Virus record (IMG/VR): IMGVR_UViG_3300035190_000171
Coordinates: 1 to 22,001 of that record
Origin: a virus
Direction: 5' to 3' (one strand)
Length of the DNA stretch: 22,001 nucleotides
In this document: positions 15,286-19,070 of the stretch, piece after piece
Layout: every line of letters begins with the position of its first letter
Numbering within the stretch: position 1 is the first letter of the stretch
Program-made: the position numbers and the translations under genes
The notes under the pieces: generated by a model
Told to the model about the DNA's origin: nothing
The model's database searches: none
The model's input: the letters and a program-made list of their open reading frames with translations, nothing else

Positions 15286-15314
15286 TTGACTTCTATGTCA
15301 AATGATAGTATACT
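15286..15314 (+). promoter_or_regulatory. Near-consensus sigma70 promoter (TTGACT-17-TATACT)
   Basis: TTGACT at 15286-15291 and TATACT at 15309-15314 are separated by 17 bases. Each hexamer differs from consensus at one position. The expected transcription start is near 15321, 3 bases before the ATG at 15324. This is a host-polymerase, early-type promoter in a region otherwise read from late boxes. Confidence 0.8.
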
Positions 15315-15323
15315 TATGAAACT

Positions 15324-15593
15324 ATGAGTAACCAAATACAAACAAGTCTAGATTGGCCTGATGTGCAGACAGCTATGGAAGCACCATTGCACAATATGAA
15401 AAAATACACACATGAAATGTGGAATATCAGTCATAATATTGGCTTGATGGTTAAAGAACTAAGTAAAGAAGAAATCAATTGTCGTAGACACCAAAAGCAG
15501 ACTAGACTACATGCAGAACAGGTGGCTAAGATAAATGAACATATAGCAGACTACGAACGTATGATAACGTTTGCTGTATTATTAGCAGGTTGA
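15324..15593 (+). CDS. Small helical protein of unknown function, probably early
   Basis: 89 residues, mostly alpha-helical, with charged heptad-like stretches (EEINCRRHQKQTRLHAEQVA) that could form a short coiled coil, and no signal peptide. I do not recognise the family. There is no Shine-Dalgarno sequence before the ATG, and the sigma70 promoter would start the mRNA about 3 bases upstream, so the message would be nearly leaderless. The stop codon TGA lies inside the -35 hexamer of the next promoter. Small helical proteins made early by T4-like phages often bind host proteins, but nothing here points to a target. Confidence 0.7.
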   Translation: MSNQIQTSLDWPDVQTAMEAPLHNMKKYTHEMWNISHNIGLMVKELSKEEINCRRHQKQTRLHAEQVAKINEHIADYERMITFAVLLAG

Positions 15594-15618
15594 CAAAATA
15601 CCAAAAAGGCTATATAAT
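15590..15618 (+). promoter_or_regulatory. Perfect-consensus sigma70 promoter (TTGACA-17-TATAAT)
   Basis: TTGACA at 15590-15595 and TATAAT at 15613-15618 match the bacterial consensus at all 12 positions, with the ideal 17-base spacer. The -35 overlaps the stop codon of the upstream gene. The start of transcription is expected near 15625, at or next to the ATG at 15626. A perfect match is rare and suggests strong early transcription by host polymerase. Confidence 0.88.
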
Positions 15619-15625
15619 GTTAATA

Positions 15626-15790
15626 ATGACTATAGAAGAAGCACACGTTGCAGTACAGTTTTATGATAGAAATTTATGGACTGCCCTCGCACAAATGGAT
15701 AGTGAGTGGGATGATCTAGATACATACGATCGTACAGCATACAAAATGATTAAACGAGAGCTAGAAAAGGAAATGGCAAATGGCAATTAA
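15626..15790 (+). CDS. Small acidic protein of unknown function, probably early
   Basis: 54 residues from the ATG at 15626 (MTIEEAHVAVQFYDRNLW), helical and acidic in the middle with SEWDDLDTYDRT. I do not recognise it. Start choice: the promoter just upstream would begin the mRNA at this ATG, giving a leaderless message. An in-frame ATG at 15617 lies inside the -10 hexamer and could only be used on read-through mRNA, where AAAAGG provides a ribosome site 7 bases before it. A TTG at 15590 opens the frame further but overlaps the upstream gene and the -35. The 3' end overlaps the next gene by 11 bases, so the two are translationally coupled. Confidence 0.65.
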   Translation: MTIEEAHVAVQFYDRNLWTALAQMDSEWDDLDTYDRTAYKMIKRELEKEMANGN

Positions 15791-16973
15791 AATTGACGGC
15801 ATGAAAAAGAAAACCAAGGCTGCTACACGTGATCCTATTTTTGCAGATGAAAAATCAATGGGCACAGAGCCAGTTTGGGATACTGAACGTGCGCTTGTAA
15901 TGGAAGATGATGAATTTGATCACTACATGCGAGAAAGTTTGCGTTATTACAACTATTTCTATTCAAGTAAAGAACTTAAAAAATATCTTGTTGACTGGCT
16001 AAAACAAACAGCAGGTGTTGCTCATAAATTAGATGCCGCAACTATTACACGTTTTGCAAAAAGTACAGATGGATATACTCCATTGACTGCACCGGCATTG
16101 ATCAAAGCACACACCTGCGGCATGCCATTACGTGAGCGTGAAATTAAGTATATTATTAGCGCGGTTAATAAAGCATTGGTATTAGATGACGCAGATGAAA
16201 AAGTAATCGAAGTGGTTGCTGACAAAACTAAGCCGGCGGTTAGGGTGCCTACCATTCAAGATCGTATGAATGAGATTGCCAGCAAGCATACTCTATACTT
16301 TGAAGAACTTGAAGATAGTCTATACGAGGGTGCTGCAGTGGATCCTCGAGCATATGAGTATCTGTCAAGCAAAGCAGTACCACAGGCAATGTTAGGTAAG
16401 ATACAGGCAGTATTTGAACGTCGTTATGCTGAAATTACAGAAGCTAAAACAACCAAAGATGAAGATCTTAAGGATGCTTATGCCTATATGAAAGCCGCAG
16501 ATTGGAAACGTTATGATACGTTCTATACTAAGTTGTTTGAAGGTATTGCACAGTACGCTCAGGTTAAAAAAGCAACTAAGCGAGCAGCAGTGCGTAAGCC
16601 ACCACAGAAAGAGAAACTTGTGGCTAAACTTAAGTATATGAAAAATGACCCTATAACTAAACTAGTAAGTGTTAGTCCTGTAGATATCGTTGGGGCACAA
16701 GAGCTTTGGGTATATAATACTAAGACACGTAAACTAGGCAAATACGTTGCTGAGGGGATGGGTGGAGCACTGGGTGTTAAAGGTACTGCTATAACAGGTT
16801 TTAACGAGTCTACAAGCGTACAAAAAACTCTGCGCAAGCCAGAGGTGCAGTTGAAAGAATTTATGGCTGCAAGCAAGATTCAATTGCGTAAGTTTTTAGA
16901 TGATATCAAAGCAACTGACATTAAACTCAACGGACGTATCAATCCAGATACTATCCTACTAAAAGTCCAATAG
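15780..16973 (+). CDS. Conserved-type phage protein of unknown function, 397 residues
   Basis: 397 residues, helical and highly charged in the first 290, with a basic stretch KKATKRAAVRKPPQKEK (about 263-279). A smaller mixed alpha/beta C-terminal region follows, with VSPVDIVGAQELWVYNTKTR and YVAEGMGGALGVKG, ending in the conserved-looking INPDTILLKVQ. I have an impression of similar proteins in marine T4-like phages, but no name or function. Lysine-rich patches suggest nucleic acid contact; that is inference. The ATG overlaps the preceding gene by 11 bases and has an AGGA about 8 bases upstream. It should be transcribed from the strong sigma70 promoter at 15590, so it belongs to the early cassette despite its structural neighbours. 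Confidence 0.72.
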   Translation: MAIKIDGMKKKTKAATRDPIFADEKSMGTEPVWDTERALVMEDDEFDHYMRESLRYYNYFYSSKELKKYLVDWLKQTAGVAHKLDAATITRFAKSTDGYTPLTAPALIKAHTCGMPLREREIKYIISAVNKALVLDDADEKVIEVVADKTKPAVRVPTIQDRMNEIASKHTLYFEELEDSLYEGAAVDPRAYEYLSSKAVPQAMLGKIQAVFERRYAEITEAKTTKDEDLKDAYAYMKAADWKRYDTFYTKLFEGIAQYAQVKKATKRAAVRKPPQKEKLVAKLKYMKNDPITKLVSVSPVDIVGAQELWVYNTKTRKLGKYVAEGMGGALGVKGTAITGFNESTSVQKTLRKPEVQLKEFMAASKIQLRKFLDDIKATDIKLNGRINPDTILLKVQ

Positions 16974-16979
16974 CCAATA

Positions 16980-17024
16980 TATCCTGTTATACTATAAACA
17001 TAATAAATATAGTATAACAGGATA
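16980..17024 (+). promoter_or_regulatory. Perfect 17-bp inverted repeat hiding the gp13 ribosome site
   Basis: The left arm is at 16980-16996 and the right arm at 17008-17024, exact inverted copies around an 11-base loop. The right arm contains AGGA (17019-17022), 7 bases before the ATG at 17030. In any mRNA read through from the upstream early gene the ribosome site would be buried in a 17-bp stem. An mRNA starting from the late box in the loop would lack the left arm and be free. No T tract follows, so it is not a simple terminator. Confidence 0.8.
17002..17009 (+). promoter_or_regulatory. Late promoter box inside the hairpin loop
   Basis: AATAAATA differs from the T4 late consensus at one position and sits in the loop and first bases of the right arm. 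With T4 spacing the mRNA would begin near 17015, inside the right arm, leaving the ribosome site at 17019-17022 exposed. Confidence 0.65.
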
Positions 17025-17029
17025 ATACA

Positions 17030-17920
17030 ATGGCCACACCAACCGGTAATCTAACAGCTAATTTAAGCCTTACAACAGACAGTTTATTTAATCCCGCTAC
17101 AGGAACCGGAGCAGGGCATATTGCTTTTGATCCTACTCCACTTACAGCAACAGAAGCACAAAAAAATGATATTATTGACTATGTGCGATTTAGACTAGGT
17201 GACGGTATGGTAGATATCGAAGCAGATAGGGACCACTACTATATGGGCATTAGGCAAGCTCTTATTCGCTATAGACAAAAAAGCTCAAACAGTGTTGAGG
17301 AAAGCTATGCGTTCTTAGACATACATCCTGAAACTCAAGAATACATACTTCCGCAAGAAATTATGAATGTGCGTGCTATGTACCGTCGTGGTATAGGTAG
17401 TGTCACAGGAACAACAGCTAGTCAATTTGAGCCATTTGCATCAGGATACCTAAACACCTATATGCTACAAGCAGGAAGAGTTGGTGGCTTGGTAAATTTT
17501 GAACTATTTGCAGGCTATCAAGAATTAGCTATGAAAATGTTTGGCGGATACATACAATTTTCCTGGAATAAAGTAACTAAAAAACTTATCTTAACTCGCA
17601 AAATACCTAACTTCGGACAAAATTACAACGAGAACATCAGCGAAAGCGTTTTGCTGCACATCGACAACTATAAACCAGACCAAATGCTGCTAGCAGATCA
17701 TACTGCACTACCGTGGATTCAAGATTACACCTTGGCATTTGTTATGATAGCAGTGGGTAATGCACGTGAAAAATTTTCCACTATTGCCGGACCAGGCGGC
17801 GGCACTAGCTTAAATGGTACTCAACTCAAAACAGAAGGCCAAGCAATGCTAGACAAATTAGATGACGATATTAAAAACTATGTTGATGGTGGAATGCCGT
17901 TGACTTGGATCACAGGCTAA
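17030..17920 (+). CDS. gp13-like neck protein
   Basis: 296 residues, close to the 309 of T4 gp13. Key stretches are DIIDYVRFRLGDGMVDIEAD (47-66), ALIRYRQKSSNSVEESYAFL (77-96), YILPQEIMNVRAMYRRG (about 104-120), a central AYQE-type segment with FSWNKVTKKLILTRK, and the end LPWIQDYTLAFVMIAVGNAR with YVDGGMPLTWI. I recognise this order from neck proteins of marine T4-like phages. gp13 and gp14 close the portal after DNA packaging and allow the tail to join. It has a clear AGGA ribosome site, but that lies in the arm of a long inverted repeat with a late promoter in the loop. It is separated from its gp14 and gp15 partners by an early cassette and by strand. Confidence 0.72.
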   Translation: MATPTGNLTANLSLTTDSLFNPATGTGAGHIAFDPTPLTATEAQKNDIIDYVRFRLGDGMVDIEADRDHYYMGIRQALIRYRQKSSNSVEESYAFLDIHPETQEYILPQEIMNVRAMYRRGIGSVTGTTASQFEPFASGYLNTYMLQAGRVGGLVNFELFAGYQELAMKMFGGYIQFSWNKVTKKLILTRKIPNFGQNYNENISESVLLHIDNYKPDQMLLADHTALPWIQDYTLAFVMIAVGNAREKFSTIAGPGGGTSLNGTQLKTEGQAMLDKLDDDIKNYVDGGMPLTWITG

Positions 17921-17982: not shown

Positions 17983-18645
17983 ATGAGTTCAATCATCGCT
18001 ATCTGTGGCTTTATGGGGTCAGGCAAGGACACTATTGCTGACTATCTAGTTAATTTTCATGGTTACAAACGAGAAAGTTTTGCCAACAGTCTTAAAGATG
18101 CTGTTAGCGTAGTGTTTGGCTGGGATCGTGAGATGTTAGAAGGTCGTACTAAACAATCTAGAGAATGGCGCGAACAAAAAGACGAATGGTGGAGTGCAAG
18201 ACTAAAGCAGGATATCACTCCAAGATGGGTATTACAGTATTGGGGCACTGAAGTAGTTCGTAAAGGATTTCATGACGACATGTGGGTAGCTAGTTTAGAG
18301 CACAGACTACTATCTAGTAAAGACGATATTGTTATCACTGATTGCCGATTTCCTAACGAAATACGAGCACTTAAAAACGTCGGTGCTATTGTACTTAGAG
18401 TTAAACGTGGTCCAGAACCAGCATGGTACAATCATGCTAAAAACTACAATAAAGGAATAAAACGTATTGGTTGGGCATTAGGTAAAACCGAGCTTGAAAA
18501 AGCCAAAGTTCATGCTAGCGAATATAGTTGGGTAGGCAGTAAGTTTGACTATGTTGTTGAAAACGATACTACATTAGACGACTTATATACCAGAGTTGAA
18601 GATATACTAAAAGTCAGGAACCAAATCACCTTGACGCCAGCCTAA
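17983..18645 (+). CDS. Deoxynucleoside monophosphate kinase (T4 gp1-like)
   Basis: 220 residues, near the 241 of T4 gp1. A P-loop, GFMGSGKDT, occupies residues 9-17. The DITPRWVLQYWGTEVVR segment (77-93) and TDCRFPNE (119-126) are typical of the phage dNMP kinase family, followed by EPAWYNHAKN near 145. The enzyme phosphorylates dNMPs, including modified ones in T4, to dNDPs for phage DNA synthesis, in the cytoplasm. An AGGGG lies about 8 bases before the ATG. In T4 gene 1 also lies beside tail genes, so the location is not unusual. The last 39 bases overlap the C-terminal coding region of the minus-strand zinc protein, so the tail of this kinase (NQITLTPA) may be a by-product of that overlap. 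Confidence 0.88.
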   Translation: MSSIIAICGFMGSGKDTIADYLVNFHGYKRESFANSLKDAVSVVFGWDREMLEGRTKQSREWREQKDEWWSARLKQDITPRWVLQYWGTEVVRKGFHDDMWVASLEHRLLSSKDDIVITDCRFPNEIRALKNVGAIVLRVKRGPEPAWYNHAKNYNKGIKRIGWALGKTELEKAKVHASEYSWVGSKFDYVVENDTTLDDLYTRVEDILKVRNQITLTPA

Positions 18646-18960
18646 CCCTTCTCGAGCTACTTCAAATTGACAGTTAGCACAGATAGTTTTTAGATTATGC
18701 ACAGCACTGTTATTTAGATTGCCGTCGATATAATAGACAAATAACTGTTCTTTATATTTTGCCTTAAAGCCACACTTTTCACAGTGTGGTTTCTTTTTGT
18801 ATCCTCCTACAGCCCAACTAGGCAACTGTGGTTTTAACTTCCTTTCTTTGCGAATACATCCGTTACAACGTGTTCTAAAATGCGTGATTTCACCTCGCTG
18901 GTAATTGATAGCTGCAGGCATTTTACCACATGATTTGCATAAAGGACGATATAACATCAT
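18607..18960 (-). CDS. HNH-like zinc protein with altered active site
   Basis: 117 residues from the ATG at 18960. Four CxxC pairs are visible: C8/C11, C32/C35, C60/C63 and C94/C97, enough for two zinc sites. Residues 75-97 follow the HNH pattern (VYYIDGN, then NL and CANC), but the usual first catalytic His is Tyr (YY at 76-77) and the final His is Gln, so nuclease activity is doubtful. I recall similar proteins in marine T4-like phages, ending in GDLxPDF as here. The frame stays open upstream to a TTG at 19056, but that stretch overlaps the sheath late promoter and does not look coding, so the shorter start is chosen. The 3' end overlaps the dNMP kinase by 39 bases. It may be a DNA-binding regulator or a decayed homing nuclease. 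Confidence 0.65.
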   Translation of the reverse strand: MMLYRPLCKSCGKMPAAINYQRGEITHFRTRCNGCIRKERKLKPQLPSWAVGGYKKKPHCEKCGFKAKYKEQLFVYYIDGNLNNSAVHNLKTICANCQFEVAREGLGWRQGDLVPDF

Positions 18961-18961
18961 G

Positions 18962-18969
18962 TATTTATG
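18962..18969 (-). promoter_or_regulatory. Possible late box directly before the zinc protein
   Basis: The minus strand reads CATAAATA one base before the ATG pair at 18960 and 18957. A T4-type start would fall near 18956, at the second ATG, so the message would be leaderless or the box is chance. No Shine-Dalgarno sequence precedes the ATG. Confidence 0.3.
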
Positions 18970-19028
18970 ACAACTAGCATTATGAACCTTTGCAAAGGCA
19001 TAATAACCAACCAAAATTTTAGTATCTC

Positions 19029-19036
19029 GATAAATA
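19029..19036 (+). promoter_or_regulatory. Late promoter box for the sheath gene (GATAAATA)
   Basis: GATAAATA differs from the T4 late consensus at one position. The start would be near 19042, with AAGGA (19056-19060) as ribosome site 10 bases before the ATG at 19071. Confidence 0.7.
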
Positions 19037-19070
19037 AAATAAAGCATTAATAACAAAGGAATACAAAACT

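Follow-up and report, generated by a model that had tools for sequence, protein, structure and literature searches.

A leader hairpin enclosing the late promoter of a jumbo-phage neck gene as a probable T4 e/soc/49-type translational timer

We found a perfect hairpin directly before a gp13-like neck gene in a 22,001-nucleotide stretch of viral DNA (hereafter the window), and a T4-type late promoter box lies between its two arms. The sequence evidence makes it very probable that this hairpin is a cis-acting RNA timer, which would be locked early and open late in infection. In the proposed mechanism, RNA started at sigma70 promoters would read through the upstream cassette into the neck gene and would carry both arms. 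In this read-through RNA the 17-bp stem would form and occlude the neck gene's only Shine-Dalgarno (SD) sequence, and little neck protein would be made early. When a phage late sigma factor of the gp55 type takes over, transcription would start at AATAAATA between the arms. The late mRNA, which would begin about 3-5 nt before the SD and lack the left arm, could not fold shut and would be translated. The early read-through RNA, the position of the late 5' end and the consequence for synthesis of the neck protein are inferred.

The hairpin and the late box in the window

The two arms are 100% complementary over 17 bp, which bears out the perfect inverted repeat claimed by the first-pass annotation (Table 1). 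This repeat is the longest of its kind in the 22-kb window, where the next-best perfect, non-overlapping inverted repeat (within 60 nt) measures 12 bp. Folded alone, the hairpin has a minimum free energy (MFE) of -20.3 kcal/mol (z -8.1; none of 200 shuffles as low), and the surrounding region (16965-17060) has an MFE of -27.2 (z -6.3). A chance origin of the hairpin is ruled out by the fold z-score, the shuffles and the co-variation described below. The ribosome site of the neck gene does lie in the right arm, as had been proposed. Relatives of the neck gene are annotated as neck protein in jumbo phages.

In T4 late promoters, an 8-bp box precedes the start by about one helical turn (PMC2988020). 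The first-pass annotation had placed such a box in the 11-base loop; this holds for most of the box, but its final two bases sit in the right arm. With the T4 spacing, the late start is predicted to fall inside the right arm, in agreement with the same annotation. WATAAATA occurs four times in the window against 6.8 expected; the late box alone is not improbable, and its position is what counts. In the relatives, GAP32, the other phages checked and T4, the position of TAAATA relative to start codons shows a peak at -40 to -20, whereas the permuted control TAAAAT has no comparable peak at start codons in the same phages. In phage CBB, ATAAATA was reported before structural genes at 35 places, together with a gp55-like sigma factor (PMC5259590). 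We found the late-sigma family phrog_12791 in relatives G002-G004 and in all five cultured genomes searched; the window itself, a 22-kb fragment, shows no late-sigma gene. The late promoter is thus predicted from sequence to be placed so that late mRNA is free of the left arm, and the box is conserved in relatives.

Table 1. Coordinates of the features (positions in the window unless a locus label is given)
Feature	Position	Strand	Remarks
Second sigma70-like promoter, TTGACT-17-TATACT	15286..15314	+	10/12 match; before the first small ORF (15324)
Small ORF of the cassette, 89 aa	15324..15593	+	No PHROG or Pfam match
Sigma70 promoter, TTGACA-17-TATAAT	15590..15618	+	12/12 consensus match; before the upstream gene(s)
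Upstream co-directional gene, phrog_11903	15780..16973	+	Proposed source of read-through RNA
Left arm (anti-SD)	16980..16996	+	TATCCTGTTATACTATA; complement of the right arm
Loop between the arms	16997-17007		11 nt
T4-type late promoter box, AATAAATA	17002..17009	+	Assigned by sequence; mostly in the loop; TAAATA invariant in a 35-leader alignment
Right arm, contains the SD	17008..17024	+	TATAGTATAACAGGATA
Predicted late transcription start	17014..17016	+	From T4 box-to-start spacing (box at -13 to -6)
SD of the neck gene, AGGA	17019..17022	+	ATG follows after 7 nt, at 17030
Neck gene, gp13-like head-tail adaptor Ad2	17030..17920	+	phrog_211, E=1.6e-27
Loci with the CCCTCAAGRTAGC block	L016, L017, L025-L033, L035, L038-L045, L066		Just before the left arm
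Further locked leaders of GAP32	L245:17013, L234:16348

Locked and open leaders in relatives and cultured jumbo phages

We modelled the cost of opening the SD in two leaders: a read-through leader, which begins 45 nt upstream of TAAATA and includes the first 25 nt of the gene, and a late leader formed by the RNA from the predicted late start. For the window, the calculated cost is 12.5 kcal/mol in read-through RNA against 1.7 in late RNA, and shuffling the left side did not reach the former value in any of 40 trials. More than 70 distinct leaders were compared, and in nearly all of them the read-through cost (mostly 6-14 kcal/mol) stands against a late cost of 0-2, with 0-1 of 40 left-side shuffles reaching the read-through cost. 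The locking of read-through RNA and unlocking of late RNA that had been suggested from the window sequence are therefore reproduced energetically, within this model, in nearly all distinct leaders.

The same architecture precedes the neck gene in the cultured phages RaK2, RCIP0023, 121Q, SD-2_S15, Munch, fENko-Kae01, Hallingskeid, GAP32, CBB, XbC2, BF-type SNUABM_19 and XaC1, at modelled costs of 11.9-15.9 against 0.7-2.2 kcal/mol (0/60 shuffles). Their arms are unrelated in sequence (GCACCTC/GAGGTGC, GCACCCCTA/TAGGGGTGC, CCCCTAAA/TTTAGGGG and AATCCTCTAAA/TTTAGAGGATT). Their upstream genes are co-directional and different from that of the window, in cassettes with a macro domain, nudE, glutaredoxin and tRNA nucleotidyltransferase. 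In RaK2 (L178 4944-4967) and 121Q (L179 4938-4961), the annotated neck start ATGAGGTGCT falls in the right arm. The true start is likely the next in-frame ATG (ATGTACGAT and ATGTCTTACGAT, respectively), with GAGG as the SD, and the hairpin thus flags likely wrong start-codon annotations in these two phages.

These leaders bear on whether the hairpin could instead be an intrinsic terminator of the upstream operon, with the late promoter merely lying inside it, which we regard as very unlikely. In several RaK2-type phages (GAP32, CBB, XaC1, 121Q and BF-type), T-rich tracts follow the right arm before the ATG; the stem and T-run there may also terminate early RNA, and both functions could coexist. 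However, no T-run follows the stem of the window (AATACAAT), a terminator scan does not list the hairpin, and the combination of G+C-rich stem and T-run that marks an intrinsic terminator is absent at this site. In the family of the window, just 4 of 68 distinct leaders pass a test for a T-run, whereas 68 of 69 have a paired SD. A rare T-run and a near-universal SD pairing indicate that what is conserved is the lock and not termination.

Preceding the lock in the window is a small cassette of co-directional genes. Homologues of its phrog_11903 gene are found close to nrdC, RNase H and phoH in phages phiM12 and DLP6, and one is found immediately before the neck gene in PA5oct. The sigma70 promoters that had been assigned to the genes just upstream are present, the better one with a full consensus match, and they are common in relatives: among 63 distinct relatives, the homologous upstream gene is preceded by a 12/12 promoter in 25 and by one of at least 11/12 in 36, while a late box lies within 120 nt of it in 10. 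Because of these consensus promoters, host polymerase should start at the cassette early. Promoters and gene families both suggest an early class for the upstream genes; the neck gene would accordingly be a late gene downstream of, and co-directional with, early or middle genes. The proposed neck-gene timer also suggests early expression of the phrog_11903 gene. Beyond the neck gene, the window contains an HNH endonuclease-like ORF (18610-19056, minus strand; phrog_10822, weak match) just past a dNMP kinase gene, and a similar ORF exists in relative G001.

The junction between the upstream gene and the neck gene takes several forms in the family. A conserved block, CCCTCAAGRTAGC, lies once per locus between the upstream stop and the hairpin at 21 loci (Table 1). 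In L135, L136 and L143-148 the late box itself is the left arm (for example, CATAAATAC/GTATTTATG), and the lock is weaker, at 5-6 kcal/mol against about 2 in late RNA. In L073-L082 and L048 the left arm belongs to the coding sequence of the upstream gene. The upstream stop TAA of L073-L082 is also part of the late box (ACAATAAATA), at about 20-45 nt from the neck ATG. Ribosomes could open a left arm that lies within a translated upstream gene, as in these clades.

Such opening is the core of another explanation, translational coupling, in which ribosomes finishing the upstream gene would open the left arm and expose the SD, so that the hairpin would set a ratio and not a time. The upstream stop codon of the window (16971-16973) lies only 6 nt before the left arm, and L073-L082, with the stop in the late box, also suit this explanation. 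We nevertheless consider it very unlikely. The distance between stop and arm is not constant, since 21 loci have an additional block of about 25 nt, and the upstream gene is a different one in RaK2-type phages. Coupling would leave both the invariant late box and the left-arm-free late mRNA unexplained. T4 e also closely follows the nudE stop, yet lysozyme synthesis is reduced 100-fold there (PMC3014915).

Compensatory changes in the arms

Co-variation of the two arms in related phages, which the first-pass annotation had named as a check, was strongly positive. Across 35 distinct leaders, compensatory double changes were found in 13 of 16 pairs (for example, CCTGTT/AACAGG, CCCGTT/AACGGG, CCCCAG/CTGGGG and GGGTCCTG/CAGGACCC). 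Double-changed cells number 63, against 22 in shuffles (0/500 shuffles) and 8-20 in slid controls; the leader rows are related, so that the shuffle figures are not probabilities, whereas the slid controls retain this relatedness. Pairing cells amount to 86%, compared with 34-46% when one side is slid, and the covariation score is 0.352, compared with 0.05-0.08. RNAalifold on a MAFFT alignment recovered only 7 pairs with a weak energy, probably because the loop lengths differ; the pairs were therefore counted on a stated structure.

The mismatches of the inner stem, read on the sense strand, are G·U in 15 contexts and A·C in 4 (p=0.019), or 30 against 5 when counted by stem. This excess of G·U is pointing to a sense RNA that must pair, rather than to a DNA palindrome. 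It is thus highly improbable that the repeat acts at the DNA level, as an operator or cruciform that overlaps the late promoter and is bound by a dimeric repressor. The arms do flank and overlap the late box, and I-TevI, which represses its own late promoter, is a precedent for repression of this kind of promoter (PMC2988022). However, the arms keep pairing through free changes in their sequence, in the length of the stem (about 7-17 bp) and in that of the loop; the mismatches are not symmetric, and in almost every case the right arm spans the SD.

Stems at the 5' end can stabilise phage mRNAs, but an mRNA processing or stability element (a 5' stem or RNase target) is barely worth considering, since the late mRNA, whose start is predicted within the stem, would not carry it, and an Rfam search of the whole window matched no family.

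Orientation of the upstream gene and comparison with known systems

The timer reading is also consistent with how the upstream gene is oriented. In four phages with a divergent upstream gene, the neck leader has no clear lock: Atu_ph07 (1.0 kcal/mol, 53 of 60 shuffles as high), SCTP-2 (4.7 kcal/mol, 15 of 60), Phosso (7.8 kcal/mol, 2 of 60; borderline) and Vibrio 2.275.O (5.7 kcal/mol, 3 of 60; borderline). The lock is present in 7 of about 8 co-directional lineages and in none of the 4 divergent ones (hand-computed Fisher p ~0.01, with shared descent as a reservation). This pattern fits the earlier suggestion that an early cassette placed before a structural gene created the need for the lock.

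Relatives with the same gene order but no pairing had been named in the first-pass annotation as evidence against the timer; they do occur, but only as two rare exceptions. In contig G001 (L127) the gene order and promoter are kept and the pairing is lost (1.5 against 1.3 kcal/mol). PA5oct, co-directional and with the same upstream gene, has no lock (4.9 against 1.6 kcal/mol, 6/60 shuffles). A loss of the hairpin along with the sigma70 promoter fits PA5oct but not G001, which has an 11/12 promoter at 11546 of L199. The neck protein of G001 (L199:13268-14461), the one close relative whose lock is lost, is longer by about 100 residues, which look like an inserted domain.

We scanned the genes with a late box and an SD in seven IMG/VR relatives, GAP32, PA5oct and part of T4. 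Each genome has 11-52 such genes, of which only 1-4 have the lock; six of the seven relatives and GAP32 include the neck gene in this small set. The scan recovered T4 e, I-TevII and segB, and it did not flag T4 soc and gene 49.

Several other genes are locked in the scanned genomes. A baseplate wedge gene has its late box inside an SD-locking hairpin in G004 (L270:5715, phrog_10646; 9.7/1.1 kcal/mol) and in G003 (L230:10347, near-identical protein start; 9.0/1.3), and its leader is a candidate for a second timer in the family of the window. A homing endonuclease gene of G005 (phrog_655, L214:11132-11797) has the same type of lock (11.6/0.6 kcal/mol), which parallels T4 I-TevI/II/III and segB. 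Strong hairpin and late-box leaders are also found before a 477-aa ORF of PA5oct without a PHROG match (L258:15620-17050; 14.7/0.9) and before phrog_8113 of GAP32 (13.8/1.9). GAP32 has, in addition, a virion protein with a locked leader (11.7/1.4) behind a divergent gene, so that genes other than the neck gene do not always follow the orientation rule.

These observations may reflect a general, re-inventable rule in T4-like jumbo phages, whereby a late structural gene behind a co-directional early operon evolves an SD-locking hairpin around its late promoter; we offer this tentatively, as somewhat short of an even chance. Under such a rule, arms, loop, upstream gene and locking mode (separate left arm, late box as arm, or stem with T-run) would differ while the logic is kept. 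RaK2, 121Q, GAP32 and CBB are culturable carriers, so that simple leader mutants could test whether gene order forces translational timing.

SD-sequestering leader hairpins with late promoters are known for T4 e, soc and 49 (PMC3014915; PMC2988022), as the first-pass annotation had correctly stated, and the class also includes I-TevI/II/III, segB and Aeh1 mobE (PMC2988022). For soc and gene 49, the hairpins are mentioned in PMC3014915 and in PMC2988022, the latter citing Macdonald 1984 and Barth 1988. In the open literature we found no earlier report of a hairpin of this kind before the neck gene of a jumbo phage, though one may exist elsewhere. Judged by sequence, the neck-gene hairpin is very probably a widespread timer of the e/soc/49 type on a structural gene, with the SD sequestered in the predicted read-through stem and with compensatory pairing. 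The T4 trick would then be deeply conserved among jumbo T4-like phages, where it would time the expression of a core morphogenesis gene.

As in T4 e, a stem would sequester the SD in a long early RNA and late mRNA would be open (PMC3014915); a late promoter of the TATAAATA type lies in the left-strand region, with the same geometry after an upstream early gene. Unlike in T4 e, the gene guarded is a connector (neck) structural gene and not lysozyme, and the sequences are unrelated. The e hairpin has been described in close T4 relatives, whereas the neck hairpin is kept across very distant viruses. The parallel with soc and 49, so far as the passages cited above describe them, is that of a late gene in an early or middle region silenced early by RNA folding. 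The product of soc is structural as well, but it is a capsid decoration protein, whereas the gene guarded here is of the gp13 neck type, whose T4 counterpart is found within the late cluster, following wac. The homing endonuclease hairpins likewise have a late promoter immediately upstream and a late RNA without the inhibitory structure (PMC2988022). However, I-TevI/II/III, segB and Aeh1 mobE are mobile genes in or between host genes, whereas the neck gene is a core structural gene.
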